From: Pontibacter sp. E15-1
GTDB lineage: Bacteria; Bacteroidota; Bacteroidia; Cytophagales; Hymenobacteraceae
DNA length: 64,000 bases
Assembly: GCF_022601975.1 (NCBI RefSeq)
Contig: NZ_JAKVIR010000001.1
Location: 1 to 64,000 of the forward strand
Direction: 5' to 3'
In this document: positions 26,371 through 49,258 of the stretch, in pieces
How the letters are laid out: each line of letters starts with the position of its first letter
Position numbering within the stretch: the first letter of the stretch is position 1
Notes under the pieces: generated by a model
The model's database searches: none
Seen by the model: only the letters and a program-made list of their open reading frames with translations
What the model was told of the DNA's origin: nothing
Program-made: the position numbers and the translations under genes

Positions 26371-26531
26371 GAGCATGTTTAAATTTCGTTTTTGGAAGCG
26401 AAAATTGTTCAGGAAGGGTTCTGGCGAAGCGTTTTTTGAGCCGCATAGCAGCGCTATGGGGTGATAAAAAGGCGAAGTCAGGTTCCTTAATGGACAATTT
26501 GCAGCCCAAAAGATGAATTTTAAACATGCTC
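26371..26531. mobile_element. MITE-like element, copy B (161 bp), inserted at a stop codon
   Basis: Inverted nearly identical copy of 9523-9683, with termini GAGCATGTTTAAA and TTTAAACATGCTC and flanking TAA duplications (26368-26370 and 26532-26534). In the orientation of copy A the duplication would read TTA, so both fit TNA. The last element base is part of the TAG stop codon of the heparinase II/III-type gene; restoring the pre-insertion order gives TAA at the same codon, so the protein was not changed. Confidence 0.82.
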
Positions 26532-32630: not shown

Positions 32631-32670
32631 AACTATGTGTTTATACCTCAAGCGCCTTTGGCCTTCCGTT

Positions 32671-34228: not shown

Positions 34229-35743
34229 TTAGTACCCGATATTCTGGGTCACCCTCGGGTTCACATCAATCTCAAACTGGGGGATCGGCAATACCAGCTG
34301 CCAGTCGGCAATGGGGCCGGTGCTGAAAAAGCCCTGCTCCGGATTGTTATAGTATGGCTCTGTCTGGAAGTGCGCGTTCATCACGGACTTCGCCAGCCCG
34401 AGGCGCAGCAGGTCGAACCAGCGCTGGTTCTCAAAGGCGAACTCCAGTCTCCTCTCCTTTGCCAGAGAAAGAATAAAGTTGTAGTAATTGCCGGCGTTTT
34501 CTGCGGTATAGGGCTCGCTGCCCTGCACGGAGCGGCTGTGTACCCTGTTCAGATACCCGATGGCTTCTGCGGTTGGCGCGCCGTTGTTCTCGTTAATCGC
34601 CTCCGCAAGCAGCAGCAGCACATCCGAGTAGCGCAGGATAGGCCAGTCGTTTTCCGCATCCTCCTCCACGGCAAACTTCGACAGGTACTTGGTGATGTAC
34701 TTGATGTTGTTCACCTTGCCGTTCTTGCCGATCCAGGTTTCTGCCATAGAGGCTGCTTTTCTTGTCTGGTCACCATTCTGCACATAGGTATTAGTGATGT
34801 CCTCGGTGGGGTAGTTGTATTCTTCCCCGTCGCCCGTCACCACATAGTTCTCGCTGTTGTCCGGGCCGAACAGGTTGGCAAACGGCGACCCCAGCCCCAC
34901 GTTTCCGGAGGTATAGCGCACCGCAAACAGGATCTCGTTGCTGTATTCGTTGTTGATGTCGAACACCGAGGCATAGGAGCTCTGCAGGTTGTAATTGCCT
35001 TGTGCCGCCACTTCGCGCAGCAGCGTTTCCGCCTTGCTTACCCGGTCACTGCCTTTCACGGTCAGGAGGGCCTTGGCCCAGAGCGCCTGCGCCGCCCACT
35101 TCGTCACGCGGCCTTTCGCGGCGGTGGCCTGCAGCATTCCGGTTGCCTGCTCCAGGTCCTGCAGCAGGAACTCGTATACCTCTGCCTCTGTGCTGCGCTT
35201 GTAATCCTTCTTGATCGCCTCCTGGCCTGTCACGGAATGGTCCACGATGAAGACGCCGCCCCACAGGCGCACCAGGTTGAAGTACGCCAGGGCGCGCATA
35301 AACCTGGCTTCGCCTTCATACTGTCCGCGCAGCGTGGGGTCGCTCACCACGGCTATGTTGTCCAGCACGTCGTTGGCCAGGGCAATGGTGGTATAGGCAG
35401 ACCGCCAGTAATTCTCCACGTATTCGTTCAGAGAGTTCACCACAAAGCGGTCCAGGTCTCTGACGGTGGTGTGCCGCGCCACGCTCGCGTTTGGCGTCAC
35501 GGAGGTGTTATCGGAGCGGATCTCGGTGAGCGCCCATTCATCCTGCTGCATGTTGTGCAGGCTGTTGTAAGTGGCGATCAGGGCCTGGTTTATGTCTTGC
35601 GCGTTTTGATAGAAGCGCCCCTCCTCTACCTGCGATATGGGATGCAGGTCAAGTTGTTCCTCGCAGGAAGAGACGAAAAAGCTCGCCACTACCATACAAA
35701 CACACATGCCTGAGCTCTTTACTACTCTGTTTATATTTTTCAT
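34229..35743 (-). CDS. SusD/RagB-family outer-membrane lipoprotein
   Basis: A 504-residue lipoprotein (lipobox FFVSSC, Cys27) beginning EEQLDLHPISQVEEGRFYQNAQDINQALIATYNSL, the standard opening of SusD proteins, followed by TPR-like helices and the RagB/SusD C-terminal domain (RLEFAFENQRWFDLLRLGLAKSVM; LPIPQFEIDVNPRVTQNIGY at the end). It forms the lid of the SusC transporter and binds the polysaccharide at the cell surface. It starts 11 bases after susC. In this locus the expected ligand is alginate oligosaccharide. Confidence 0.95.
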   Translation of the reverse strand: MKNINRVVKSSGMCVCMVVASFFVSSCEEQLDLHPISQVEEGRFYQNAQDINQALIATYNSLHNMQQDEWALTEIRSDNTSVTPNASVARHTTVRDLDRFVVNSLNEYVENYWRSAYTTIALANDVLDNIAVVSDPTLRGQYEGEARFMRALAYFNLVRLWGGVFIVDHSVTGQEAIKKDYKRSTEAEVYEFLLQDLEQATGMLQATAAKGRVTKWAAQALWAKALLTVKGSDRVSKAETLLREVAAQGNYNLQSSYASVFDINNEYSNEILFAVRYTSGNVGLGSPFANLFGPDNSENYVVTGDGEEYNYPTEDITNTYVQNGDQTRKAASMAETWIGKNGKVNNIKYITKYLSKFAVEEDAENDWPILRYSDVLLLLAEAINENNGAPTAEAIGYLNRVHSRSVQGSEPYTAENAGNYYNFILSLAKERRLEFAFENQRWFDLLRLGLAKSVMNAHFQTEPYYNNPEQGFFSTGPIADWQLVLPIPQFEIDVNPRVTQNIGY

Positions 35744-35754
35744 TGTCTTGCAGC

Positions 35755-38700
35755 TTAAAATTTCAAATCAACACCCATAGAAAGCGTGCGCTGAACAGGG
35801 TATGCCCCACGCTGGTAGCCCACGATGAGCGGGGACTGGTATACCCCGCTGGTCATCAACCCTTCTGGGTTCAGGCCGGTATAGTCGTCTGCCATCAGGT
35901 ACAGCAGGTTGTAGCCCGAGAAGTATACCCTGATGTTCTCCAGTTTCATTTTGGCCGCGAATGCCTGTGGCACGCTGTAGCCAAGCACGGCGCTGCGCAA
36001 CGACACGTAAGAGGCGTCCTGCACCAGATAATCTGTGTTCACCCAGTCGCGCCCGTTTTTCTCGCGTGGCTTGGAGGCAGCGTAGTCGGGGCTGAACCAG
36101 CGTCCGTCCGTGAAGTCGTGGTGCAGGTAGCGTGTCTCGGTATAGTAGCCGTCTCCGCTGAACACCTCAGCTCCCTGGGATCCCTCGAACACGATGCTCA
36201 GATCAAAGCTCTTCCAGGTAACCCGGTTAGTGAAGCCCCAGGTAAAGTCCGGGAACGGGCTGCCCAGCCCAATGCGGTCTTTGGCGTCGATCACACCGTC
36301 GTTGTTCACGTCCGCGACACGGATGCCGCCGGGGGCGTCTTCGGCGGAGTGCGGGTTGGCGTTGATCTCGTCCTGGTTCTGCCATACGCCGATCATTTTA
36401 TACCCATAGAACTGCACCATCTGCTCCCCTACTTTCGAGATGTACTGCTCGCCACGCTCACCGGTGTTGATGAACTGCGCCGCGCCGCCTACAGAAAGCA
36501 GCTTGTTCTTGTTAGCGGCCAGGTTGCCACCGATCTGCCAGGACAGCTCCGGCTTGGTGAGCGCAAAGGCGTTTAGCGAAAGCTCTATTCCCTTGTTCTC
36601 CACGCGGCCGACGTTGTTCCAGAAATTGCGGTAGCCCGAGGTGGCCGTGATGTTCTGCATGTACAGCAAATCCTGCGTCACGGACTGGTAATAGTCTGCC
36701 GTGAGCGACAGCCGGTTCGAGAAGAAGCCGAGGTCTATGCCATAGTCAAACTCCAGCGTTTTCTCCCACGTGATCGCGTCGTTCGATATCGTCTCGTTGA
36801 TCTGCCCCAGGCCCTGCGCCACGCTGCCAATGCCGTCGCCAAACACGTAGTTCGCTCCAGACAATGTATTCACGTTCACGTAGTTGTCGATGTTGTTATT
36901 GCCCGTCAGGCCCACGCTGAAGCGCATCTTAAACTGGTTCACGGCATTCAGCTTGTCGGCCCAGAAAGCCTCGTTTGCGATGTTCCAGCCCAGGGAGGCC
37001 GAAGGGAACCAGCCATACTTGCGCTCGTCGCCGAACCGCGATGAACCGTCTGTCCGCATCGCCACCGACAACAGGTACCGGTCATCGTAGGCATAGTTCA
37101 CGCGCCCCAGATACGAGATAAGCGCATCCTCCTCTTTCAGGGTATAGGTGTTGGCCAGGTTGATGGTGGTGGCCGCATTCACGGTCGGCACATAGTCAGT
37201 TGGCTGCTGCGATCCTTCGAGCGAAGAATACTTGTAGTCTGTGTACTGATAGGTAAAGCCCCCCAGCGCGTTGATGCTGTGCTTGGCTTTCTCCCAGTTA
37301 TAGTTCAATGTGTTCTCGTTAAGGATGTCTTTGGAGAGCAGGGTGCTGTTAGACGACAGCCGCAGACCAGAGTCGTCGGCCTCGGAGTTGCGCCATCTGT
37401 CAAAGTCGCGGTACTTGATGTAGGTACCCAGCGTGGTCTTGAAGCGCAGGTTTTTGATGATATCCCATTGCAGGTAGGAGTTGGCCACCAGGCGGTAATC
37501 GTCCTGCACGCGCCACTCGTTTTCCATACGCGAAATCGGATTGTTGTTGCCCGTTCCCCAGATGTTGGAGTTTGTCACGGTCTGCTCGTTGCCCTCCGCA
37601 TCGGTATAGGTCAAGGCGATGTTTCGGTAATGCCGGCCGTGGGCATACTCCCCGATGCCGTAGCCTGTGGCCGCAGAGGTATAGGCGTTGTGCCGCACCG
37701 GCGACCAGGTGTGCGTCCGGGTAAAGTCCGCGTAGGGCACCGACGACTTGCGGTTTGTGGTATAAGTCGGTTTCAGGTCAAGCCCGATCCGCACTTTTTT
37801 GTTGAGCTTGGCATTTACCTTGGCAGATAGGTTAAAGCGCTCCAGGGTATTGTCCTTTAGCATGCCCTGGTCGTCCACATACTGGCCCGAGATAAAGTAA
37901 TTGATGTTGCTTCCGCCGCCAGACACGTTCATCAGGTAGCTTTTCATGGTCGTTATGTCGCGTGTCGCCTCGTCCTGCCAGTCAGTCACCCCGGAGTTGT
38001 CGGCAATCAGGCGCATCATTCTTTCACGCGATGAAAAATCAAGCACCTTGGCCTCCCTGTTTTCTCTTGTCGCCTTCGCGTTTTCAATCAGTTGGTTTTC
38101 CCGGAGCAGCATGTCCGTGTATTCGTACGCGTCCATCACATCCTCTTTCTTATAAAAGGATTTCACACCGAAGGAGGATTGAAAATTATAGCTCGGCTGA
38201 TTTTCCTTGCCCTCTTTGGTAGTGACCAAAATCACGCCGTTCGCTCCCCTCGAGCCATAGATGGCCGTAGAGCTGGCGTCCTTCAGCACCTCGATAGACG
38301 CAATGCTGGCCGCGTTCACAAACTCAAGGCCGTCGTTGGTCGGGTAGCCGTCTACCACCACCAGCGGAGAACTGCCCGCGCTGATGGAACTCACCCCTCT
38401 GATACTGATCTCCGGGGCTTCGCCTACCTCGGAGGTGGTGTTCTGCACTTTCACACCGGCAATCTGGCCCTGCATGGCCTGGTCAACCCGCGAGACGGCT
38501 ATCTGCTCCATGTTTTTGTTCTCCAGCCTGGCCACAGAGCCCGTCAGGTGCGATTTTTTCTGCTCGCCATACCCCACCACCACTACTTCTTCCAGCTGGG
38601 TCATGTCGGATTGCAGCACCACGTCTACCACGGCCTTGTCTGCCACTGGCACCTCGCTGCTCTTAAAGCCGATGTAGCGAAAGACCAGCGTATTTCCGGA

Positions 38701-38952
38701 AGCTGCCTTAATCTCAAACGCCCCATCCGCCCCGGTCACGGTGCCTGTGGCTGTGCCCTGCACCATTACCGTGACACCTGGCAACGGCTCACCACCGGTG
38801 TCTGTCACCTTGCCGGTAACAACTTTTCCCGCCTGGTCGCCCGGGGCACTTTGGCCGAAGCTGTAAGCGGAATTTAAAAGAAGGAGCATGAGCACTAGCA
38901 GAACGCTTAGCGCTGGCCCCCTTTCGGCTTTTGGATGTAACAAGTTTTGCAT
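35755..38952 (-). CDS. SusC/RagA-family TonB-linked outer-membrane transporter
   Basis: A 1065-residue protein with signal peptide, a carboxypeptidase-D-like domain (about 42-125, VTGKVTDTGGEPLPGVTVMVQGT), a TonB-box-like LEEVVVVGYGEQKK, plug domain (GVSSISAGSSPLVVVDGYP; SIEVLKDASSTAIYGSRGANGVILVTTK) and a large beta barrel ending in the typical aromatic C-terminal strand (MGVDLKF). It imports oligosaccharides across the outer membrane using TonB energy, together with SusD downstream. The operator palindrome at 39015-39028 lies 63 bases upstream of the start, so the gene should respond to the GntR regulator. It heads the second half of the locus: susC, susD, glycan-binding protein, PL6, PL17, lyase. 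Confidence 0.96.
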   Translation of the reverse strand: MQNLLHPKAERGPALSVLLVLMLLLLNSAYSFGQSAPGDQAGKVVTGKVTDTGGEPLPGVTVMVQGTATGTVTGADGAFEIKAASGNTLVFRYIGFKSSEVPVADKAVVDVVLQSDMTQLEEVVVVGYGEQKKSHLTGSVARLENKNMEQIAVSRVDQAMQGQIAGVKVQNTTSEVGEAPEISIRGVSSISAGSSPLVVVDGYPTNDGLEFVNAASIASIEVLKDASSTAIYGSRGANGVILVTTKEGKENQPSYNFQSSFGVKSFYKKEDVMDAYEYTDMLLRENQLIENAKATRENREAKVLDFSSRERMMRLIADNSGVTDWQDEATRDITTMKSYLMNVSGGGSNINYFISGQYVDDQGMLKDNTLERFNLSAKVNAKLNKKVRIGLDLKPTYTTNRKSSVPYADFTRTHTWSPVRHNAYTSAATGYGIGEYAHGRHYRNIALTYTDAEGNEQTVTNSNIWGTGNNNPISRMENEWRVQDDYRLVANSYLQWDIIKNLRFKTTLGTYIKYRDFDRWRNSEADDSGLRLSSNSTLLSKDILNENTLNYNWEKAKHSINALGGFTYQYTDYKYSSLEGSQQPTDYVPTVNAATTINLANTYTLKEEDALISYLGRVNYAYDDRYLLSVAMRTDGSSRFGDERKYGWFPSASLGWNIANEAFWADKLNAVNQFKMRFSVGLTGNNNIDNYVNVNTLSGANYVFGDGIGSVAQGLGQINETISNDAITWEKTLEFDYGIDLGFFSNRLSLTADYYQSVTQDLLYMQNITATSGYRNFWNNVGRVENKGIELSLNAFALTKPELSWQIGGNLAANKNKLLSVGGAAQFINTGERGEQYISKVGEQMVQFYGYKMIGVWQNQDEINANPHSAEDAPGGIRVADVNNDGVIDAKDRIGLGSPFPDFTWGFTNRVTWKSFDLSIVFEGSQGAEVFSGDGYYTETRYLHHDFTDGRWFSPDYAASKPREKNGRDWVNTDYLVQDASYVSLRSAVLGYSVPQAFAAKMKLENIRVYFSGYNLLYLMADDYTGLNPEGLMTSGVYQSPLIVGYQRGAYPVQRTLSMGVDLKF

Positions 38953-39014
38953 TTCTATAGGTGTTTTAAGATTAATTCAGTTTCACACAGAAGCGATTGA
39001 TTGGTATACTATTA

Positions 39015-39028
39015 ATTGGTTAACCAAT
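39015..39028. promoter_or_regulatory. GntR operator candidate upstream of susC
   Basis: Perfect palindrome ATTGGTTAACCAAT within the shared core AATTGGTTAACCAATAT, identical to the sites at 48255 and 49245. It lies 63 bases upstream of the susC start, at a promoter-like distance. FadR-subfamily GntR regulators bind TGG-N-CCA type palindromes, which fits. Confidence 0.78.
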
Positions 39029-39179
39029 ATAAGGATGATTTTTTAAATATCCCAGCGTTGAGTAGGTTTATTTCTTTATTATTTTACAAAGTGATTTAGT
39101 ACTTACTTACTGAATTGGGCGGTTTTCTGCAATTGCGCCGTTTCTGAGGCTTTTTTGCAAGTGGCTGACCTGGTTTTGA

Positions 39180-39860
39180 TTAGCCTGAAACGCGCGCTCC
39201 GCGGATAATTTTGATATGCTGCAATGCCTCCGAAACAGATTGTTCGATGGCCTTGTAATCGTATTCGCCAGCTGTGGCCTTTATCAGCTTCGAGCCAGCC
39301 CCCACGCAAGTGACACCGGCCTTGAACCAGGTTGCCAGGCTTTCCGGGTCCATGGCTACGCCCCCTGTGGGCATCACCTTGGTCCAGGGGCAGGGGCCTT
39401 TGATGGCGGCGATAAAGGCGGGGTTTATACTCTCTCCCGGGAAAAGCTTCACAATCTCCGCTCCCAGTTCTTCTGCCTTTGAAATTTCGGTTAAGGTCTG
39501 GCAACCAGGCAACCACAGCACTTTTCTGCGGTTGCACGCAATCGCGATATCTTCCCGAAGCACGGGGGTGACGATGAACTCTGCGCCGAGTTGCATATAA
39601 AGCGCCGCCGTGCCGGCATCTGTCACCGACCCGATCCCGAGGATAAGGCCCGGCAGCGCCGCGTGGGCATGCTTCACCAGTTCGGCGAACACCTCGTGCG
39701 CGAAGTCCCCTCTGTTTGTAAACTCGATCACCCGGGCGCCACCGGCATAGCAGCTGTCCAGTATTTTCTTGCCTACCGCCGCGTCTGCCTGGTAAAACAG
39801 GGGGATCAGGCCGGTCGCCTCCATGGTCAGGGCCACGTCTATTCTTGTTTTTCTTGCCAT
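39180..39860 (-). CDS. eda: 2-dehydro-3-deoxy-phosphogluconate (KDPG) aldolase
   Basis: A 226-residue TIM-barrel aldolase that splits KDPG into pyruvate and glyceraldehyde-3-phosphate in the cytoplasm. The base-carrying motif is VIEFTNRGD (the family's Glu), the Schiff-base Lys lies in EIVKLFPGE, and the phosphate site in VMPTGGVAMD. Length and motifs agree with bifunctional KDPG/KHG aldolases. It starts 9 bases after the KDG kinase gene and is the last gene of the upstream operon; the susC operator lies about 150 bases further on. It completes the alginate pathway after the kinase. Confidence 0.95.
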   Translation of the reverse strand: MARKTRIDVALTMEATGLIPLFYQADAAVGKKILDSCYAGGARVIEFTNRGDFAHEVFAELVKHAHAALPGLILGIGSVTDAGTAALYMQLGAEFIVTPVLREDIAIACNRRKVLWLPGCQTLTEISKAEELGAEIVKLFPGESINPAFIAAIKGPCPWTKVMPTGGVAMDPESLATWFKAGVTCVGAGSKLIKATAGEYDYKAIEQSVSEALQHIKIIRGARVSG

Positions 39861-39869
39861 TTTGTTTTT

Positions 39870-40895
39870 TTAACGGGATACCCGGGCCGCCACAGAGGCG
39901 CCCTCCAGCATGTGCAGCACATCTGCAGCTTTTACCAAATTCGCGTCCCCTTCTATGCTGTGTTTCAGGGCCGAAGCCGCCACGGCGTAGTTCAGGGCTT
40001 TCTGTGCATCATTTTCGAAATTTAGCAGGCCATAAATCAGCCCTGCCATAAAGGAGTCGCCGCCGCCAACCCGGTCAATAATCGGGTTCAACTCATAGGT
40101 GGGCGAGGTGTATGCCTCCCCGTCCTGCAGCAACAGCCCTCCCCAGGAGTTATGGCTGGCATTTACGGTGCGGCGCAGGGTGGATACGGCGGTTTTGATC
40201 TGTGGGAAGGCCTGCACCAGCTGCCGTAACACTGCCTCGTTGTAGGCTGGGTCATCGATGTGATAACCCGATGCCGCTATACCGAAATAATGCCGGGCGT
40301 CGTCGGGGTTGGCCAGCACCACGTGGGTATAGGCCATGAGCTCCGCCATAATAGCTTGGGGAGAAACCCCATACCGCCACAATTTGCTTCTGTAATTGAG
40401 GTCGCAGGATACGGTTAGGCCCAGGCTGTGGGCTACTTTTATACCCTCCAGGCACGCGTCTGCGGCCCCCTGCGATACGGCCGGCGTAATGCCCGACCAG
40501 TGAAACCAGTCGTGCCCGGCAAGCTGCGCCTCCCAATCGATCATACCTGGCTTTAGCTCCGCAAAGGCGGAATGTGCCCGGTCGTAGATCACTTTGCTGG
40601 ACCTAAAGCCTGCGCCGCTTTCCAGAAAGTATACCCCAAGGCGGTCGCCTCCGGTGTATACCCCTTGCGTACCCACGCCGTGCCTGCGCAGCTCCTGCAG
40701 CACACACTCGCCTAAGTCGTTGGCCGGCACCCGGCTAACCAGGGAGGCGGGTATGCCAAAAGTAGCCAATGAGACCGCGACATTGGCCTCAGCACCTCCA
40801 TAACACGCGTTAAAATTAGCGGACTGTCCGAACAGCTTGTTTCCGGGGGTGGAAAGCCGCAGCATCACTTCCCCAAAGCAGGCTACTTTTTTCAT
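39870..40895 (-). CDS. kdgK: 2-keto-3-deoxygluconate kinase (PfkB family)
   Basis: A 341-residue sugar kinase phosphorylating KDG to KDPG. N-terminal signature VACFGEVMLRLSTPG and FNACYGGAEANVAVSLATFG are those of KDG kinases; the catalytic region is DRVGGGDSFMAGLIYGLL, with Asp as the base. Length is slightly longer than the usual 310-330. Its start lies 15 bases from an SDR pseudogene remnant and about 150 bases after the intact SDR gene, and it sits 9 bases before eda, so kinase and aldolase form a pair. The substrate fits the alginate pathway, in which DEH is reduced to KDG. Confidence 0.95.
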   Translation of the reverse strand: MKKVACFGEVMLRLSTPGNKLFGQSANFNACYGGAEANVAVSLATFGIPASLVSRVPANDLGECVLQELRRHGVGTQGVYTGGDRLGVYFLESGAGFRSSKVIYDRAHSAFAELKPGMIDWEAQLAGHDWFHWSGITPAVSQGAADACLEGIKVAHSLGLTVSCDLNYRSKLWRYGVSPQAIMAELMAYTHVVLANPDDARHYFGIAASGYHIDDPAYNEAVLRQLVQAFPQIKTAVSTLRRTVNASHNSWGGLLLQDGEAYTSPTYELNPIIDRVGGGDSFMAGLIYGLLNFENDAQKALNYAVAASALKHSIEGDANLVKAADVLHMLEGASVAARVSR

Positions 40896-40910
40896 AAGGC
40901 TTTATGTTAA

Positions 40911-41015
40911 TTATGAGCAGAAAACACCACCAGTAATGTCGATGTTGGTGCCAATAGCACGACCACCTCCAGTTGCTGTAGCTAGTTTTCCTTCTAAACT
41001 CACAATGTCTTTTAT
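40911..41015 (-). pseudogene. Remnant of an SDR gene with a large internal deletion
   Basis: On the minus strand this stretch encodes IKDIVSLEGKLATATGGG followed by RAIGTNIDITGGVFCS and a TAA stop. The first part is the beta1-glycine loop of a short-chain dehydrogenase (LEGKxAxxTGGGRxIG), normally at residues 5-22; the second is the C-terminal end (GTNIDITGG), normally some 220 residues later. They are joined in frame, so about 220 codons are missing, and the expected ATG is ATA. It lies between the intact SDR and kdgK, where a DEH reductase gene would stand. It could be expressed as a tiny peptide from a GTG, but a decay product is more likely. Confidence 0.6.
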
Positions 41016-41047
41016 TACAATAGTCTGATACTGATTCTCAAAGTATT

Positions 41048-41815
41048 TTATATACCAAGAGCCTGTCCACCACCTACTTGTATTGTCTCGGCGGTAATAA
41101 ACGATGCATCTTTACTAGCCAAAAAAGCCACAACAGAAGCCACCTCTTCGGGCTTGCCTAACCTCCCCAGCATAATATTGTCCTTCCATGAAGCGAAAAC
41201 CTCAGGCTTGGTGGATTTGATTTGGGCGTGGAAGGGCGTATCTATGGTACCAGGAGACACGGCATTTACTCTGATGCCGTATTCGGCTAAATCTTTAGCT
41301 AGTGCTCTGGTTATGGCATGAACCCCGGCTTTCGAAGTGCCATAGATACCCGCTCCAGGTCCGCCAGCATTCCACCCTGCGTTTGACGTGTAATTGATTA
41401 TCGAAGCATTTTCTCCTTTTTTAAGATAAGGGATGGCCGCTCTTGAGGTAAAAAACACTGAATCAAGGTTTAGCGCCATCACTTTCCTGTAGAACTCAGT
41501 AGTCATTTCTTCAAATCTTGACCTACCCCCTAGTCCTCCGGCATTATTTACCAAGACATCGATTCTACCATAGTTTTCGCCAATTCTATTAAAATTGCCG
41601 TTCACCTCATCCTCATTGGTAACATCAAAACCATAAAATTCTGCTTTGATGCCTTCTTTACGCAGCTCTTCGACCTTCTCAGCCCCAGCTTTTTCATCGA
41701 TACCATTTAAGATTACAGTAAAATTATCTTTACCTAACCTTTTTGCCACCTCAAACCCAATACCTCCTGTGGCACCCGTTATGACAGCTACTCTATTTTC
41801 AGATTGATTTTCCAT
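41048..41815 (-). CDS. SDR oxidoreductase, probable DEH reductase
   Basis: A 255-residue classical short-chain dehydrogenase: TGATGGIG (13-20), NNAG (90-93) and the catalytic Ser144-Tyr158-Lys162 are all present; the cofactor site NGID after beta2 does not decide NADH or NADPH. In alginate loci an SDR of this type reduces 4-deoxy-L-erythro-5-hexoseulose uronate (DEH) to KDG, the step missing otherwise between KdgF and KdgK here. The gene is visibly more AT-rich (around 43-47% GC by eye) than its neighbours and uses many A/T-ending codons, so it was probably acquired separately. An internally deleted SDR remnant follows it. A different sugar dehydrogenase function cannot be excluded. Confidence 0.85.
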   Translation of the reverse strand: MENQSENRVAVITGATGGIGFEVAKRLGKDNFTVILNGIDEKAGAEKVEELRKEGIKAEFYGFDVTNEDEVNGNFNRIGENYGRIDVLVNNAGGLGGRSRFEEMTTEFYRKVMALNLDSVFFTSRAAIPYLKKGENASIINYTSNAGWNAGGPGAGIYGTSKAGVHAITRALAKDLAEYGIRVNAVSPGTIDTPFHAQIKSTKPEVFASWKDNIMLGRLGKPEEVASVVAFLASKDASFITAETIQVGGGQALGI

Positions 41816-41863
41816 TGTCCTTTATGATTTAATTAGGAGTGTTATAAATTATTTATTGCAAAA

Positions 41864-43159
41864 TTAGTTTAGTACTGTTTCTTGTTTTGATTTCAGCGTG
41901 ATCGGCTTAATCTCTCCGCTCAACACCCATACCGCCAGTATGGCCACCGGAACCAGCACGGCCCCCAGCACAAAGAAGGGCACATAGGAGTCGACTGTGA
42001 TCACGGGCACCAACCACGTAGTGATGAGAGTGCCCAGGATGGCAGCTGAACCACTGACACCGGCCAATGAGCCCACCGATTTGCCCGAGAAAAAGTCGCT
42101 GGGCAGGGTCTGGATGTTGCCGATGGCGATCTGAAACCCGAACAGGATGACGGCAATCAGCAACACAGCAGTTAGAGGCGTAGCGGCGAACGCGGTTAAG
42201 ATCAGGGCAGGCAGCATGATAACGCCCCCTAACGTGATGATCACCTTGCGTGTCCGGTCAACACTCCAGCCGTTTCTGAGCCAGTAGCCGGCCAGCCAGC
42301 CTCCGAAAAGGCTGCCGATGGCGGCCCCCACGTAGGGCACCCAGGCAAAGAAACCTATCTGCTTCACGTCGAAGCCAAACCTGTCGGCCAGGTAAATGGG
42401 GAGCCAGGACACAAACAGCCACCAAACCGGGTCTATGAAAAACCGCGTTGCGATCACGGCCCAGCTCTGGCGGTAGCGCAGCATCTCTAACCAGCCCGGC
42501 GCATAGTCGTCTGCCGGCTCATTCGGGTTTTCCACTGCCTTCTGCCCCGACAGGATGTACTGCCGCTCCTCCTCTGTCAGCCAGGGATGCGTGGCCGGAG
42601 GCGCTTTGTATATAATCAGCCAGGGGATGATCCAGATGGCGCCCAGTCCGGCGATCAGTACAAATGTGGCCCGCCACCCCACAGCCACGTAGAGCAAAGC
42701 GATGATTGGCGCGGACACGACGGCACCGATGGATGCGCCCGAGTTGAAGATGCCCTGGGCAAAGGCCCGCTCCCGGATCGGGAACCACTCGGCATTACTC
42801 TTGGTGGCACCCGGCCAGTTGCCAGCCTCACCGAAGCCCAGCGTAAACCTGAAAATCCCGAAGGAAGTGACTGACTTAGCCACAGCGTGCAGGGCGATAG
42901 AGGCCGACCAGATGACAATGGACAGTAAAAACCCGGCCCTGGTGCCCAGGCTGTCGAATATCTTGCCGAAGGCAGACTGCCCTACCGCATAGGCCACCAT
43001 AAAAAAGGAAAGGATCAGGGCATAGTCCTCTTTGCCCAGGTCCAGGTCTGCGGCAATTCCGGGCCACATCACGGCCAGGGCGTTTCTGTCGATGTAATTG
43101 ATTACAGTAGCCGTGCCTACCAGGCTTACTATAACCCATCTTAAGCCTTTTACTTTCAT
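41864..43159 (-). CDS. MFS transporter, anion:cation symporter (hexuronate-type)
   Basis: A 431-residue membrane protein with about twelve transmembrane helices. The N-terminal WVIVSLVGTATVINYIDRNALAV and RFTLGFGEAGNWPGATKSNAEWFPIRERAFAQGIFNSGASIG are the signatures of the ACS family that includes ExuT/GarP-like uronate and aldarate transporters. It overlaps the kdgF gene by 4 bases (ATGA), so the two are translationally coupled. It should carry unsaturated uronate or DEH from the periplasm, where PL17 releases it, into the cytoplasm. Confidence 0.93.
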   Translation of the reverse strand: MKVKGLRWVIVSLVGTATVINYIDRNALAVMWPGIAADLDLGKEDYALILSFFMVAYAVGQSAFGKIFDSLGTRAGFLLSIVIWSASIALHAVAKSVTSFGIFRFTLGFGEAGNWPGATKSNAEWFPIRERAFAQGIFNSGASIGAVVSAPIIALLYVAVGWRATFVLIAGLGAIWIIPWLIIYKAPPATHPWLTEEERQYILSGQKAVENPNEPADDYAPGWLEMLRYRQSWAVIATRFFIDPVWWLFVSWLPIYLADRFGFDVKQIGFFAWVPYVGAAIGSLFGGWLAGYWLRNGWSVDRTRKVIITLGGVIMLPALILTAFAATPLTAVLLIAVILFGFQIAIGNIQTLPSDFFSGKSVGSLAGVSGSAAILGTLITTWLVPVITVDSYVPFFVLGAVLVPVAILAVWVLSGEIKPITLKSKQETVLN

Positions 43160-43515
43160 GGTGTTGGCGTTTCAGGTTTTAAAAAATCTTCCCGGGCGGG
43201 GCTGAACACATCGATGAGCACGCCCGCTTCCTGGCAAACCGCGCCGTGGTATACATGCGGGGGGATATAAAACCCGTCGCCTGTGCGCAGTACTTTCTTC
43301 TCGCCGTCTATCTCCACCTCAAAGGCACCGCTTACCACGTAGGTCGCCTGGGCATGGAAGTGCTCGTGCACCGTCCCCACACTTCCCGCCTCGAACATAA
43401 CTTTCGCCATCAGAATGGTTCCGTCATACCCCATCAACTGGCGCTTCACGCCCGGGGCTACTGTTTCCCATTCCAACTCCTGACCAAACAGGTACTCTTG
43501 ACTTTGCTGCTGCAT
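43156..43515 (-). CDS. kdgF: KdgF-type cupin (uronate linearising protein)
   Basis: A 119-residue single-domain cupin. The metal site is read as HEHFHAQ (His50, His52, Gln56) in the first cupin motif and His90 in PPHVYHG of the second, matching KdgF. KdgF speeds conversion of the unsaturated uronate released by lyases into the linear DEH. It lies 4 bases after the PL17 gene and overlaps the transporter gene, so lyase, KdgF and transporter form one unit. No signal peptide is visible, indicating a cytoplasmic enzyme. Confidence 0.9.
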   Translation of the reverse strand: MQQQSQEYLFGQELEWETVAPGVKRQLMGYDGTILMAKVMFEAGSVGTVHEHFHAQATYVVSGAFEVEIDGEKKVLRTGDGFYIPPHVYHGAVCQEAGVLIDVFSPAREDFLKPETPTP

Positions 43516-43519
43516 ATCT

Positions 43520-45742
43520 TTATTTTTTTAGTTTCAAATAGGTATATGGGCCGTTCCAGGTGAGGGTGGTTGCCTGGGTTTTCACTTTGTGCTTTGCCTT
43601 GCCCGCCGGGTCGGCGGCAAGCGCAAAGGCCCGCACGTCTCCTTTTTTTGTCTCGATCCAGATGATCTTCACCCCGTTCTGCTCTTCCAGGCGCAACGAC
43701 TTTATCTGGCTGTTGGCCTGCCTGGTATACTCCTCCCGGGCATTGGACTCGCCATGGGGCTCTAGCAGCGAGACGAATACGACCGGTGCTGTGATGTTCT
43801 TTTTCCGGAGGATCAGGCCCGGCTCGTTGCGGAGGTTGAAGTTCGGGTCGTTGGCGCCGATGCGCGTGAAGAGCATTTCCGTGTTCTCGCTCCCGATCGT
43901 GGAGTAGGTATAAAATCTGTCGCCGTTGAGCCAGGTGACCTGCGCCGTGCCCGCCGGAACCGGGCCCTGGGCTACCTGCCATAAATGCTCATACCCGTTT
44001 GCCTGCCCCACCGCCTGCAGCTGCTTACTGTTGCTCTGCACCTTCACGTTGGTGTCCATCAACTGCCCCTGGTAGTATAGGGGCAAATCATACTGCTGCT
44101 GCGGCTGTTTGGAGCGCACCTCAAACACGTCCAGCACCACCGGGTACTCAAAAGCCTCATCCCGGATCATGGCCATGGTGCGGGTAAAATCCACCCCAGG
44201 GTATACCTCCTTTATCTCGGCAGACATCACCTGGATGTCTTCTTTGGACGCATCGAAAAAGCGGGATGTTGGGAACGACTTCATCGACACGTCATAGTCG
44301 CCCTTGAAATGGCTTTCCTCGTTCACCAGCACCGTGTTGTGTGCCACTGTTTGCTTGGCCCATGTCTTGTTTTCCGGCAGGTAATGCCCGCCATACTTCG
44401 CCTCCACGTTAAGGTAGCGGGCCGCCCCGTAATCCTGCACGATCTCGGTGCCGTTGTCGTAGAACATCCACGAGAGCTTGTCGTAATGGCCGTGCCCCAT
44501 CCCCTGCGAGGTATACTTCATCACCAACGCCTCGTCTTTTGCATTTTTCCCGGAGCGAAGCACGCCAACAGCGCCCTCGGTTCCCTTTGCCCCATCGCGC
44601 AGCTCAAGCGAGCGGAAAGCGAAGGGCTGCGCCTGTTTGTCTGCCAGCGCCCGGGCCACCTGCACGCCTTCGCCTGAGAGGATGACCTCCTGCTGCTTTT
44701 CGGCGATCGACAGAAACCCCTTGTCCTGGGTATGGGCATAGGCAATGTCGGTGGCATACACCAGCTCTATCGAGCTGAGGTCTTTCTCCTTGATCGCGTC
44801 GTTGAACGGGAAGAACTTGTTGGCATAGGTAAGCTGGATACCGGTTCGGATGGCCTTCAGCAGGATGCCGTCGCGGTAGTCGAAGATCTTGCGTTGCGGC
44901 TCGTTGTTGGCGATGGCCTGGGCAAACACCACGAAGGGCATCAGCGCATACCGCTGGTAGTATGGGCCCTCGGTATAGTAGCCGTCCGGCGAGAACAGCT
45001 GGTCCAGCTGCGCCATAAAACCGCCGTTGCCTTTCTGGTCCAGGCCGTAGAGCGCCTGCTTCACCAACTCCTGATTCCCAGTCACATACCCGGTCATACC
45101 CACGGCCGCAACGGCCCAGGTGCCATGGTTGTGGATCTTGTTAAAGGTCTCGGCCGACTCTTCGGACAGGAACCGGGCGGCCGGGAAAAACACGTTTTTC
45201 TCCAGATGCTGTATTTCCTGCTGGCTCAGCTTGCCTTTGATGGCGTCGTAGGCCTGTATGGTATACACTAGCCACACGCAGTCGTTGAGGCTCTGCCAGA
45301 ACAGCTTGCCCGGCGATTGCTCTTTGCGCTCCGGGTGCAGGCCGAGGGTTGGGTATAGCTTAGCATAAGCGTTCAGCATATCCTTCACGTACTGCAGGTA
45401 CTTCTCCTCTCCGGTCACCTGAAAGAGCACGCCTGCCTGGTGCATGGCCTTGTAGTTGCGCTTGTGCTGCTCGTGCGTAAACCCGCCGCCCGCATCTTTG
45501 GGCACTGGCACGTTTATACCCTCTTTCAGCAGCGGGTCGGTGCTTTCTTTCATCTCCCGGAACGAGGAAGTGAGCAAGGGCGCGTTTCCCAGGGTGCTTT
45601 TGATGGCTGCAACCCCGTCCGGCGTCAGGATGAGCCGTGGGTACTGCTGCTGGCCCTGGGCCCGGAGCGGCGTCTGCGCCATACCTGCGAGAATCGCAAC
45701 CATCACAAAACAAGCCTTGAAGAACTGTTGAACTACCGTCAT
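43520..45742 (-). CDS. Alginate lyase PL17 (oligoalginate exolyase), copy 2
   Basis: A 740-residue exported protein (signal segment about 5-24). It is a paralogue of the protein at 28977-31202: FWQSLNDCVWLVYTIQAYD, NKIHNHGTWAVAAVGMTGYV (Asn205-His206), GYYTEGPYYQRYALMPF (Tyr262) and GHGHYDKLSWMFYDNG are shared almost residue for residue, while the ends and loops differ. The ATG follows the TAG stop of the upstream PL6 gene with no gap. Together with that PL6 it repeats the PL6-PL17 order of the other operon. It releases monomers from alginate oligosaccharides, probably in the periplasm. Confidence 0.92.
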   Translation of the reverse strand: MTVVQQFFKACFVMVAILAGMAQTPLRAQGQQQYPRLILTPDGVAAIKSTLGNAPLLTSSFREMKESTDPLLKEGINVPVPKDAGGGFTHEQHKRNYKAMHQAGVLFQVTGEEKYLQYVKDMLNAYAKLYPTLGLHPERKEQSPGKLFWQSLNDCVWLVYTIQAYDAIKGKLSQQEIQHLEKNVFFPAARFLSEESAETFNKIHNHGTWAVAAVGMTGYVTGNQELVKQALYGLDQKGNGGFMAQLDQLFSPDGYYTEGPYYQRYALMPFVVFAQAIANNEPQRKIFDYRDGILLKAIRTGIQLTYANKFFPFNDAIKEKDLSSIELVYATDIAYAHTQDKGFLSIAEKQQEVILSGEGVQVARALADKQAQPFAFRSLELRDGAKGTEGAVGVLRSGKNAKDEALVMKYTSQGMGHGHYDKLSWMFYDNGTEIVQDYGAARYLNVEAKYGGHYLPENKTWAKQTVAHNTVLVNEESHFKGDYDVSMKSFPTSRFFDASKEDIQVMSAEIKEVYPGVDFTRTMAMIRDEAFEYPVVLDVFEVRSKQPQQQYDLPLYYQGQLMDTNVKVQSNSKQLQAVGQANGYEHLWQVAQGPVPAGTAQVTWLNGDRFYTYSTIGSENTEMLFTRIGANDPNFNLRNEPGLILRKKNITAPVVFVSLLEPHGESNAREEYTRQANSQIKSLRLEEQNGVKIIWIETKKGDVRAFALAADPAGKAKHKVKTQATTLTWNGPYTYLKLKK

Positions 45743-48115
45743 CTAGTATAGGTTTTTTTCGTTTGAACTGAGGAATCCGTTATTCCAGAGGGCACCGAGC
45801 GGCTTTCCGTCGCTGCCTTTCCCGAGCAGCGTAGCGCCTGGCTTCAGCTGAAAGTTGCCCTTTTCGGGGGCTGTGTATTCCGGCTTCACGGCAAACATGT
45901 GTTTCCCGGTCACGTCGTTGTAGAAGGATTCAATTTTGCCGGAGCGGTACAGGTTACAGTAGTCGATTTTGTTATGCGCCCACCGCGAGCTCTCGAACAG
46001 CACGGCCCTGCCCCCTTTGCCGCTGTCGCTGAAAATGCTGTTGCGCACCTCCGCCCACTGCACCCCGATCAGGCGCAGCACCGAACCAAGCTCTGTGTTA
46101 TTGACCTGGTTGAAGGTGCAATGGTCTACCGTCAGAAAGGGCCCGGCGGTGCTCTCATCGTTGCCACCCCGGTATAGGTCCAGGGCACTGCCCATCACGG
46201 CATCAAAAAGGCAGTTGCTGATCGTCACGGACTCGGCGTTATACTTCCCTTTGTCCTCTTTTTCGGCAGCCAGGTTGATCGCCACGCCGGATATATCCTG
46301 AAAAGTGGAGTTGGTGAAAGAAATGGTGTCGGCAAAAGTGCTTTGGTATGCCCGGAAAGCACCTGCGCTGGACTCGTTAAAGCCGTAAAATGCGCAGTTG
46401 TCTACAAAGAGGTTGTAGTGCCTGATCATGGGTTTGGTGCTGGTGCGAATGGCGTTTTCCGCGATACCCCCCTCCGAGAAACCGTTGAAAGCAATCCCCT
46501 CCACCCGGATGCTTCCCCCCTTCTGGATACTGAGCAGCGCCATTCCGGAATCGTTATAGGCCATATTCACTACCGGCCGGGAGGAAAGGCCCGCTTTTGC
46601 GCGTATGGTTAGCGTATGCGGCAGTGTCAGCGTCTGGTTGATCACATACTCCCCAGCCTCCTGCAGCTCGATTATATCGCCCTCCGTGGAGTTCAAAACG
46701 GCTTTCTCCAGCGCGTTTGCTGCGCGTGTAACCTTTGTAATGATTTGCGTTGCCCGCGCTTTTTCCGGTGTATACCAGCTCACGCCGGTTGTGGCGGCAT
46801 CGGCCGGCAATGCCGGGGCAAGTGTGCCATCTGCCGATGCCCACAGCCCTTGAGCGTTTTTGGAAAGGGAAAGCTTTACGCGCTCAAACCCTTTCTCCTT
46901 GAAGCTTGCTGAAGCCGTGACCACCTTATTATCTGCAAACGTGACGCCGCTGATGTCGTCCAGGGCCTTGAAAACCGTTTCGGAGCCTGGGTTGTAGAAG
47001 ATATTGTGCCGGACCTTGACATTCTGCGGAACGGCGGTCCGCTCGTTGTCGCTGCCAACCCCAAACGTTACGTTGGCGCAGTTGATAAAGGCATTGTCTT
47101 CAATCAGCACGTCCTTCACCTGGTGGTAGCGGTTGATGGAGGAGTTCGGCACGCCGTTCATCACCCCCAGCGCAGAAAAGAACCGGTCGCCCTCCAAACC
47201 CTGAAAGTAGTTGTTCCGGATGGTATGGCCTGCGTTGATCACGCGGATGCCCCCCGTATTTCTCCGGTTGTTACCTATAAAGTAGTTGCCTTCCACGAGG
47301 TTGTTGTTGCCGTGGCGCAGCGCCAGCACCCCCTCCGACTCATAAAAGGTGTTGTTGCGGATGATGTTGTCGCCGGACTTGACGGAAACCACCTCTACCT
47401 CGCCGTTGCAGCGGTAGAAGTAATTGTTCTCCACGATGGTATGGCTGGAGGTTAGCGAAAACGTGGATGTGCCGATACGCATTGTCTCGCCCCCGTTGGA
47501 ACCCAGCCGCGGCCGTTCGCCAAAATAGTTATGGTCTATGCGGTGGTGATTTTGCTGGCTCGCCTCGCTGTTCAGCCTGACCACCAGCGTCACCCCGCTG
47601 TTGAGTTTGTTGTTCAGGTAGGTATGGTCCACGCGGTTGTTTCGCCCGTAGAGCTCTACCCAATAGTCGCTCTTGAACCGGTCTTCCTGGTTATAGCCAT
47701 CAATCACACAGGCGGTTACCCGGCAGTTGTTGGCCAGGTTATCCTTGTCCTTTCTAAAGGAGATTACCGCATCATCCGGCGTGTGCCCGTTTACAAACAC
47801 CAACCCCGACACCACCAGGTATTCCCCGGCAATCTTCAGACTTGATTTCCCCTCTAACCTAACCGCACCCGGCTTTTCCGCCATCAGCACAATAGGCTTG
47901 TCTGCTGTTCCTCTCGCCTCAAACACCAGGCGAGCATCTGTCCAGCTGCCCGCCGCCATGCGCATGGTATCCCCGGGCTGGGCCGCAGCCACGGCAGCTG
48001 CAAACGTGCTTTGGCTGACAGCAGCGCTGCCAGCGGACGGCGTACTTACCTGTGCTGTGCTGCAGGATGCTACCGTTAGCGCAGTTTGTATAAGTATAAG
48101 GATCAGCTTTTTCAT
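45743..48115 (-). CDS. Two-domain alginate lyase PL6, lipoprotein
   Basis: A 790-residue lipoprotein (lipobox TVASC, Cys18). The N-terminal half (about 30-420) is a PL6 parallel beta helix with catalytic Lys246 (VVSVKSGDN) and Arg267 (LALRHGNNN). The C-terminal half (about 460-780) is a second parallel beta helix (LQEAGEYVINQTLTLPHTLTIRAKAG; NSTFQDISGVAINLAAEKED) without these residues, as in two-domain enzymes of the AlyGC type. It is longer than the PL6 at 31284-32630 by that second domain. First gene of its operon, with the operator palindrome 140 bases upstream of its start. It probably acts on polymer at the cell surface. Confidence 0.92.
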   Translation of the reverse strand: MKKLILILIQTALTVASCSTAQVSTPSAGSAAVSQSTFAAAVAAAQPGDTMRMAAGSWTDARLVFEARGTADKPIVLMAEKPGAVRLEGKSSLKIAGEYLVVSGLVFVNGHTPDDAVISFRKDKDNLANNCRVTACVIDGYNQEDRFKSDYWVELYGRNNRVDHTYLNNKLNSGVTLVVRLNSEASQQNHHRIDHNYFGERPRLGSNGGETMRIGTSTFSLTSSHTIVENNYFYRCNGEVEVVSVKSGDNIIRNNTFYESEGVLALRHGNNNLVEGNYFIGNNRRNTGGIRVINAGHTIRNNYFQGLEGDRFFSALGVMNGVPNSSINRYHQVKDVLIEDNAFINCANVTFGVGSDNERTAVPQNVKVRHNIFYNPGSETVFKALDDISGVTFADNKVVTASASFKEKGFERVKLSLSKNAQGLWASADGTLAPALPADAATTGVSWYTPEKARATQIITKVTRAANALEKAVLNSTEGDIIELQEAGEYVINQTLTLPHTLTIRAKAGLSSRPVVNMAYNDSGMALLSIQKGGSIRVEGIAFNGFSEGGIAENAIRTSTKPMIRHYNLFVDNCAFYGFNESSAGAFRAYQSTFADTISFTNSTFQDISGVAINLAAEKEDKGKYNAESVTISNCLFDAVMGSALDLYRGGNDESTAGPFLTVDHCTFNQVNNTELGSVLRLIGVQWAEVRNSIFSDSGKGGRAVLFESSRWAHNKIDYCNLYRSGKIESFYNDVTGKHMFAVKPEYTAPEKGNFQLKPGATLLGKGSDGKPLGALWNNGFLSSNEKNLY

Positions 48116-48254
48116 GTGTTTATCTATAAATGCTATTCAGAAGCGGCACTCAATCTGTTTCCCTCTGGTGATTGCGCCCGCACTTACTTTCTTTGGCAAT
48201 CCGTAATGTGCTGGCAGCTATTCCACTAAGGTACACATTTTTGGTTTACATGCA

Positions 48255-48268
48255 ATTGGTTAACCAAT
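48255..48268. promoter_or_regulatory. GntR operator candidate upstream of the PL6-PL17-kdgF operon
   Basis: Same 14-base palindrome ATTGGTTAACCAAT, with the same following AT, as upstream of susC and of the regulator gene. It lies 140 bases upstream of the PL6 start, so the transcript would carry a leader of some 100 bases. Confidence 0.75.
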
Positions 48269-48389
48269 ATTTTGAGTAAAAAAATCTTCTGTGGCTCAGT
48301 TCGCAGTAGGATGGTATAAGATCCCGTTCGAATTTATCAGGGTAACGCGGGTATGCGCCTTGCTGGCACAATTTATAAAGTTGATAAAT

Positions 48390-48422
48390 CCTGGTTATAC
48401 CAGCGGCGCCGGCATAACCAGG
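48390..48422 (-). terminator. Hairpin downstream of the GntR gene
   Basis: CCTGGTTAT (48390-48398) pairs with ATAACCAGG (48414-48422) around a GC-rich interior that can also pair. On the minus strand it follows the regulator gene by about 90 bases; a following T-tract is weak (ATTTATCAACTTTATAAATT), so this is a modest candidate. Confidence 0.45.
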
Positions 48423-48510
48423 TAATGGGTAAGGAAGGCTAAAAGTAATACTGCGGGCTTTATACCGGTGCAGGACACCAAAACGCCTGCAAGTGGTATA
48501 AAGCTATATG

Positions 48511-49212
48511 CTATGCGTTTTTGAAACTTGAAATACCTTTCAGATGCGCGCTCATCGCGAGTTCTGCCTTATCCGGATCCTGGTCCTGGATATGCTTCAG
48601 GATAGTCATGTGTTCCTCCAGGGCTCCGTAAGGCTTGCCCCCTCCACACACATTCTGCTCGGTAAAGTGCGTGAGAATATCCGGGGTGACAATCAGCATC
48701 AGCGACTTGAGCACGCTGTTCTTGCTTGCCTCCGCTATCCGGATATGAAACATCAGGTCTTCATCAATGCCCTGCTTTCCGTTTTCAACCTTCGCGCGAT
48801 AGGCGTCCAGCGCCTTTTCCAGGTCGATCAGGTCGTCTGCAGTTCTGCGCATGGCTGCCAACCGCACCGTCTGCTTTTCCAATATCAATCGGGTTTCGAT
48901 CAACGATTGAAAATCGTGCCCTTCCAACATCAGCACATCCGTGATCAGGCCCTCCAGCGCGGTTATACCCAGGCCTGCCACAACCGTCCCGCTTTGCGGC
49001 AGCGTCTTCACGATACCGTAGAACTCTAGCTTGCGAATGGCGTCCCGGACATAACTTCTCCCCACGCCCAGCTTCTCACACAACTGGCGCTCCGGCGGCA
49101 ATTTATCCCCCGGCTGCAGTTGCCCCGACGAGATAAGCTGCTTAATCTGCTTGATGATCTTGTCAGCAGGTTTTTCAACTACTATTTCCCGAAAATTATT
49201 TATAACCTCCAT
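48511..49212 (-). CDS. FadR-subfamily GntR transcriptional regulator of the alginate locus
   Basis: A 233-residue regulator. N-terminal winged helix (about 15-78): KLPPERQLCEKLGVGRSYVRDAIRKLEFYGIVKTLPQSGTVV. C-terminal FCD domain (about 95-225) with the metal/ligand His residues in FHIRIAEAS (His156), EEHMTIL (His201) and SAHLKG (His223). FadR-type regulators are usually released from DNA by a pathway acid; KDG, KDPG or DEH are natural guesses. The palindrome at 49245-49258 lies 33 bases upstream of its own start, and identical copies precede the two catabolic operons, so repression with self-control is likely. Use of a GntR regulator rather than a hybrid two-component system is typical of alginate loci in marine Bacteroidota. 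Confidence 0.92.
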   Translation of the reverse strand: MEVINNFREIVVEKPADKIIKQIKQLISSGQLQPGDKLPPERQLCEKLGVGRSYVRDAIRKLEFYGIVKTLPQSGTVVAGLGITALEGLITDVLMLEGHDFQSLIETRLILEKQTVRLAAMRRTADDLIDLEKALDAYRAKVENGKQGIDEDLMFHIRIAEASKNSVLKSLMLIVTPDILTHFTEQNVCGGGKPYGALEEHMTILKHIQDQDPDKAELAMSAHLKGISSFKNA

Positions 49213-49244
49213 AATCTTATGCTAAGTTTGACTGCTAACCAGTA

Positions 49245-49258
49245 ATTGGTTAACCAAT
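49245..49258. promoter_or_regulatory. GntR operator candidate upstream of the regulator's own gene
   Basis: Third copy of ATTGGTTAACCAAT, again within AATTGGTTAACCAATAT, 33 bases before the regulator start, where a bound protein would overlap promoter or transcription start. Confidence 0.78.

Follow-up and report, generated by a model that had tools for sequence, protein, structure and literature searches.

An AusR-like GntR regulator and its predicted tandem operators at the alginate utilisation locus of Pontibacter sp. E15-1

AusR of Zobellia galactanivorans, reportedly described by Dudek et al. in 2020 (doi 10.1093/nar/gkaa533), is a described relative of the system considered here, which is a predicted regulon of a FadR-type GntR protein over the alginate locus of Pontibacter sp. 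E15-1; the stretch analysed comprised positions 1 to 64,000 of contig NZ_JAKVIR010000001.1 (hereafter the window). Parts of three papers present AusR as a GntR repressor encoded within an alginate polysaccharide utilisation locus (PUL), which binds single, double or triple operators and whose repression is relieved by degradation intermediates (PMC8286568, PMC7874173, PMC8073546). According to part of a further paper, some regulators of the FadR subfamily recognise TKGT/ACMA boxes in which GT and AC stand 3 or 2 nt apart, the group with 2-nt spacers comprising UxuR, GntR, HpxS, HypR, MdcY and PrpR (PMC4494728). In addition, an excerpt on the alginate locus of Vibrio sp. C42 mentions GntR genes, two of three of which were upregulated on alginate (PMC13390454); that locus, compared by description only, shares with ours the presence of GntR genes among alginate genes and belongs to another phylum.

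In this study, the GntR-family regulator gene of the window (gntR) was found inside an alginate PUL, and a strong and a weak copy of an operator-like palindrome were present at all three promoters concerned, which resembles the one to three operator copies in the published excerpts on AusR. In most loci of the group of relatives designated f26, homologues of SusCD, PL17, cupin, MFS transporter, SDR, 2-keto-3-deoxygluconate (KDG) kinase and aldolase surrounded the regulator, and the f26 loci, in which copies lie 13 and 26 bp apart, agree with the AusR description as far as those excerpts go. The window regulator belonged to one family with the f26 orthologues beside alginate genes, being 46-50% identical to those compared, whereas the pitch between copies was 15 bp in the window and 13 bp in f26. 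The comparison with AusR thus runs through f26 orthologues and published descriptions rather than through the sequence or motif of AusR itself, and by this analogy the window system is best read as a system of the AusR type from a different order of Bacteroidota, with a different pitch. The predicted operator ATTGGT-TA-ACCAAT also followed the A/T-rich TKGT/ACMA rule with a 2-nt spacer, and the regulator shared the helix-turn-helix (HTH) and FCD domains of the 2-nt-spacer FadR group; however, it scored far below the NCBIfam cut-offs for UxuR (70 of 442 bits), ExuR (65.5 of 396) and NanR (128.7 of 260), and identification with any of the three was rejected. Among the open-licence titles and abstracts listed by the literature searches, none treated a Pontibacter alginate regulator or the operator pitch, and the original AusR paper may well describe 13-bp arrays.

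Three exact copies of the 14-mer ATTGGTTAACCAAT were present in the window, all intergenic and each upstream of a minus-strand gene, namely susC, the PL6-type lyase gene and gntR (Table 1). The initial annotation had reported these three copies and no other, together with an identical 17-base core, AATTGGTTAACCAATAT, and both statements were borne out. The distances to the start codons, which it had given as 63, 140 and 33 bases for susC, PL6 and gntR, were 62, 139 and 32, so that the order was right and the values were off by one through a counting convention. The trailing AT common to the copies was real at the three window sites, but in two other Pontibacter species it accompanied the palindrome only at susC, not at PL6 or gntR, and was rejected as part of the motif. 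The proposed scan of the genome (5,587,370 bases in 55 contigs) with up to two mismatches returned three exact places, none with one mismatch and 12 with two, and the reversed control pattern gave 11 places at up to two mismatches. Exact copies are expected 0.01 times per window, and none of 100 dinucleotide shuffles reached three; with three mismatches allowed, the window count of 3 was not above chance (shuffle mean 2.08), and therefore the signal resides in the exactness of the copies. This chance-level count is what would be expected if the palindromes were a chance or structural repeat without a regulatory role, an explanation to which the rarity of exact copies and the conservation in 55 of 68 loci described below leave a negligible probability. 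Scans of the window for Rfam families, tRNAs and tandem repeats gave no matches.

Beyond the three palindromes, the genome contained four other TTGGTNNACCAA sites, two of which lay within large open frames (contigs C22 and C52) and two in intergenic positions (one on C5, the other on C14, some 90 bp ahead of an open frame on the minus strand). These four were treated as chance because the reversed pattern was no rarer in the genome than TTGGTNNACCAA (10 against 7), although the two intergenic ones may be members.

Further evidence for the operator assignment came from other genomes. An orthologue of the regulator at E 1e-30 was found in 13 of 395 Bacteroidota genomes in an even draw, the window's own being among the 13, and a scan of named genomes gave orthologues at 52 loci. 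The set compared consisted of 68 rows, namely the 52 named loci L007-L058, 15 further loci L082-L096 and the window, and the 67-row set is the same without the window. Both sets exclude L001-L006 and L070-L081, which are short stretches of genomes present at greater length as other loci, as well as L059-L069 (places in the window's own genome) and L097 and L098 (same genomes as L031 and L007). Of the 68 loci, 55 had the TTGGTNNACCAA core at 9/10 letters or better in the 350 bp upstream of gntR and 36 had a perfect core there; nine scrambled palindromes of equal composition gave 0-3 loci for the former and none for the latter. Moreover, 81 of the 89 perfect cores in the 67 loci lay at most 400 bp upstream of gntR (50), SusC (22), PL6 (7), PL17 (1) or cupin (1), and the remaining eight were elsewhere, with no core within a tblastn-matched coding stretch. 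Within Pontibacter, the regulator occurred in 3 of 50 genomes and the identical three possessed PL17; the two other species carry regulators 88-89% identical to that of the window. These three genomes held 3, 2 and 3 sites that read ATTGGTYRACCAAT and were the only ones with more than one, two of the other 47 having one site each. Thus, the motif tracks the regulator across Bacteroidota and the alginate cassette within Pontibacter. FadR-type operators are mutually alike, and seven candidate stretches appeared in the genome on first look, so that a different FadR-type regulator might be thought to bind the sites; however, a single candidate passed E 1e-30, and the site follows this regulator gene and precedes it in most loci, which makes binding by another protein very improbable. 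In our estimate, with a probability of about 0.9, the palindromes are the operators of the FadR-type GntR protein of the window, which would act as an AusR-like local repressor of alginate catabolism.

Several observations weigh against this assignment. Among 119 relatives, 10 of the 114 without the regulator held 12 ATTGGTYRACCAAT-type sites, and genome G104 had two regulator copies and no exact ATTGGTYRACCAAT, its sites showing one mismatch or different outer letters. No core of at least 9/10 was present within 350 bp upstream of gntR in 13 of the 68 loci; ten of these had a perfect core elsewhere in the stretch, and L030, L037 and L049 had no convincing site in the stretch. In L033 and L034 the motif was present, and a search of the stretch at E 1e-15 found neither a lyase nor a SusC homologue; therefore the regulator family is not strictly tied to alginate. 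Finally, promoters could not be located by a search for the -33/-7 consensus, which found none at susC and weak, inconsistent matches elsewhere: one weak pair at gntR and one at PL6, with 0.1-0.23 expected in shuffles. As promoters are not confidently placed and the position of a site is uninformative by itself, the regulator might bind as an activator or with mixed effect rather than as a simple repressor. This was judged improbable, since AusR, the one described relative system, is a repressor in the excerpts cited above, and the weak -7-like element at gntR overlaps the operator, as occlusion would have it.

Some of the orthologues deserve separate mention. L033 and L034 are those of Labilibaculum and Ancylomarina, with the operator before gntR, and the regulator may serve another pathway there. 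A 48% identical regulator was also found at L032:10001-10687 on a contig labelled as a Rhodospirillales metagenome-assembled genome, which reflects either horizontal transfer or a mis-binned contig.

The initial annotation had described three simple sites. The three palindromes stood, but each proved to be a strong palindrome with a degenerate copy beside it, exactly 15 bp further left on the gene-proximal side, and these second copies had not been recorded in that annotation. When the flanks were Markov-shuffled 20,000 times and any non-overlapping offset up to 46 bp was allowed, 7 shuffles reached the summed match of the second copies. In alignments with P. oryzae and P. aquaedesilientis, the palindrome and the gene-proximal half-site formed a conserved block at all three promoters, the mean column identity being 71, 54 and 74% for susC, PL6 and gntR. 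Furthermore, Algoriphagus and some Saprospiraceae had a complete or almost complete palindrome as the second copy at 15 bp. Across the 52 named loci, 76 sites matched at 13/14 letters or better, and for 31 of them a second site matching at 9/14 or better stood 15 bp away, a full pair being counted from both members; the next-best distance, 16 bp, had 7. It might be held that the strong palindrome alone is the operator, with one dimer per promoter and an incidental 15-bp copy, given that the second copy matches at only 8/14 positions at PL6 and gntR and that 36 of 68 rows of the regulator tree have neither a 13- nor a 15-bp pair. The shuffling result, the conservation in three species and the full 15-bp copies of Algoriphagus and Saprospiraceae render this single-operator explanation rather unlikely.

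The pitch of the tandem copies differed between lineages. When a first copy of at least 9/10 and a second of at least 8/10 were scored at distances of 11-19 bp in the 68 rows, copies were 13 bp apart in nine f26 loci and one Nonlabens (Flavobacteriaceae) locus and 15 bp apart in 22 loci, the window included. On the tree of the 68 regulators, in which the Nonlabens row grouped with f26, the 13-bp and 15-bp rows formed the two sides of one branch (support 96/96), whereas shuffled pitch labels needed 8.7-8.8 changes; rows with neither pair were not counted. Seven rows had pairs only at 14, 16 or 17 bp (L019, L023, L035, L039, L042, L054 and L056). Five of these seven were Bacteroidales, an order in which two further rows had 15 bp, so that the pitch is not a clean two-state trait everywhere. 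The pattern was also examined in genomes not used before, with both copies required to reach 9/10. In f26 (40 of 68 new genomes, taken down the score list from 74 matched and 6 already used), the 40 loci gave 57 pairs with a 13-bp distance, found in 32 loci, and 20 with a 26-bp distance; no 15-bp pair occurred. In f27, which is Saprospiraceae (20 of 40 new genomes down the list from 42 matched and 2 already used; L219 and L224 were dropped as matching L021 and L024), the 18 remaining loci gave 15-bp pairs 13 times (8 loci), 16-bp pairs 6 times (5 loci) and pairs at 30-39 bp six times, and no 13-bp pair. The reversed pattern and one scrambled pattern gave no pairs in these fresh genomes. Group f26 is probably Flavobacteriaceae, as the order of its alginate genes and the Nonlabens row suggest. 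What is new here is the pitch of 13 bp in f26, 15-16 bp in Saprospiraceae and 15 bp in Pontibacter and Algoriphagus.

An explanation that we somewhat favour is that AusR-like repressors read tandem operators of lineage-fixed pitch (13 bp in f26, 15-16 bp in Saprospiraceae and 15 bp in those Cytophagales with pairs), that neighbouring dimers touch through a lineage-specific interface, and that regulator and pitch have co-evolved. As a side observation, the N-terminal arm before the HTH differed between the 13-bp clade (L038, L085-L093) and the 15-bp rows (L007-L028) in 15 rows compared, and this arm is a candidate contact between neighbouring dimers.

The regulator matched the Pfam families GntR (69.8 bits, cut-off 27) and FCD (86 bits, cut-off 24.3), the domain arrangement of the FadR subfamily. 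FCD domains typically carry a metal-ligand pattern of one Asp and three His, and they commonly bind small carboxylates near the metal. Residues D152, H156, H201 and H223 of the regulator, which correspond to this pattern and would be its putative ligands, were invariant in 46 sequences, and the same letters aligned in DhdR; the binding of carboxylates by other FCD domains fits a uronate-derived effector. A cysteine at residue 189 of the FCD domain was invariant in 18 sequences and conserved at 90% or more in 46. The AlphaFold model, for which alignment A5 (45 of the 52 named loci plus the window) was used, predicted a winged HTH and an all-helical C-terminal domain, with a mean predicted local distance difference test (pLDDT) score of 81.3 and a predicted template modelling (pTM) score of 0.57. 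Its top Foldseek matches were FadR/FCD regulators, including Streptococcus agalactiae GntR, DhdR and NanR; whole-chain TM-scores were only about 0.5 (root-mean-square deviation 8-12 A, and 8-10 A for DhdR and S. agalactiae GntR), whereas the FCD domain alone fitted the inducer domain of DhdR at 2.3-2.9 A. DhdR (PDB 9jpj) and S. agalactiae GntR (6az6) were the closest solved relatives by sequence (E 2.2e-23 and 8.1e-18), with 28-30% identity to the window regulator.

Alginate is degraded by lyases, and the products are processed by KdgF, 4-deoxy-L-erythro-5-hexoseulose uronate (DEH) reductase, KDG kinase and 2-keto-3-deoxy-6-phosphogluconate (KDPG) aldolase. Judged by its gene content and this established pathway, the locus is a complete alginate utilisation locus (Table 1). 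One run of genes extended from PL6 through PL17, cupin, MFS, SDR and kinase to the aldolase (48115 down to 39180), and another from SusC through SusD, TIG, PL6 and PL17 to the heparinase-type lyase (38952 down to 26531), the probable operon limits being drawn from spacing and strand. The best NCBIfam model for the first PL17-type lyase, oligoalginate lyase, scored 863 bits where the cut-off is 1400, and the kinase likewise scored below the cut-offs of the KDG kinase models.

Table 1. Predicted operator copies and genes of the alginate locus in the window
Feature	Coordinates	Strand	Evidence
Strong operator palindrome (predicted), susC-led operon	39015..39028	.	Exact 14-mer; same position in two other Pontibacter species
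Strong operator palindrome (predicted), PL6-led operon	48255..48268	.	Exact 14-mer; one change in two other species
Strong operator palindrome (predicted), regulator gene	49245..49258	.	Exact 14-mer; identical in three species
Weak second copy, susC promoter	39000..39013	.	10/14 matches; (G)GTATACCAA-like block kept in three species
Weak second copy, PL6 promoter	48240..48253	.	8/14 matches; ACCAAA half kept in three species
Weak second copy (half-site), gntR promoter	49230..49243	.	8/14 matches; GGTT kept in three species
GntR regulator, FadR subfamily (HTH + FCD), AusR-like	48511..49212	-	Pfam GntR, FCD; orthologues
PL6-type lyase (Chondroitinas_B family)	45743..48115	-	Pfam, 412.8 bits
PL17-type oligoalginate lyase	43520..45742	-	Pfam Alginate_lyase, Hepar_II_III_C
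Cupin, probably KdgF	43156..43515	-	Pfam Cupin_2; KdgF from domain and neighbourhood
MFS transporter	41864..43159	-	Pfam MFS_1
SDR, probably DEH reductase	41048..41815	-	Pfam adh_short_C2; DEH reductase from domain and neighbourhood
PfkB kinase, probably KDG kinase	39870..40895	-	Pfam PfkB; KDG kinase from domain and neighbourhood
KDPG/KHG aldolase	39180..39860	-	NCBIfam NF005499, 326.7 bits (cut-off 275)
SusC-like TonB-dependent transporter	35755..38952	-	TIGR04056, 844 bits
SusD-like lipoprotein	34229..35743	-	Pfam SusD_RagB
TIG-domain protein	32671..34170	-	Pfam TIG
Second PL6-type lyase	31284..32681	-	Pfam Chondroitinas_B
Second PL17-type lyase	28977..31202	-	Pfam Alginate_lyase, Hepar_II_III_C; 51% identical to first
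Heparinase II/III-type lyase	26531..28945	-	Pfam Hepar_II_III_N

Between the window and two other Pontibacter species, the SDR was 97% identical, as against about 70-92% for the remaining proteins encoded at the locus. After the susC operon, a fructose-1,6-bisphosphatase (FBPase) gene was found at 25226-26239 on the minus strand. This genome had three FBPase copies, P. oryzae two, one of which was in the same place, and P. aquaedesilientis one elsewhere; among the other 47 genomes, one had two, two had none at the cut-off and the rest had one. Possibly, this gene supplements the alginate locus with a gluconeogenic function. With respect to a possible cassette insertion between FBPase and cydB, cydB homologues (E 1e-60) were found in 8 of 50 Pontibacter genomes and FBPase (E 1e-80) in 48 of 50.

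The initial annotation had predicted one repressor, two catabolic operons and autoregulation. The grouping of one regulator with two catabolic operons and its own gene was supported by the comparative evidence, while repression and autoregulation are suggested by the AusR analogy and the position of the sites; binding, repression, autoregulation and operon boundaries are what we infer from these data. In the absence of alginate, a regulator dimer would occupy each strong palindrome, probably with the help of another dimer bound to the weaker copy, which lies 15 bp closer to the gene. The repressor would thereby hold three transcription units low, namely the regulator gene itself, the PL6-PL17-cupin-MFS-SDR-kinase-aldolase unit and the SusC-SusD-TIG-PL6-PL17-heparinase-like unit. 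An early degradation product, formed by basal lyase activity, would then enter the FCD domain and cause release of the repressor, the effector presumably being an unsaturated or keto-deoxy uronate (DEH, KDG or KDPG).

In conclusion, the regulon is well supported and rather ordinary, and the pitch is the one comparative fact of note. These findings extend the alginate-PUL repressor system of a marine flavobacterium to Pontibacter and, on the evidence of sites and adjoining genes in common, to Algoriphagus, Flammeovirga, Marinoscillum, Saprospiraceae and some Bacteroidales. The motif predicts such regulons from sequence. The change from a 13-bp to a 15-16-bp pitch poses a concrete, testable question on the cooperative binding of GntR dimers. 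If the lineage-fixed pitch is true, the family would be a natural experiment on the packing of repressor dimers on DNA.

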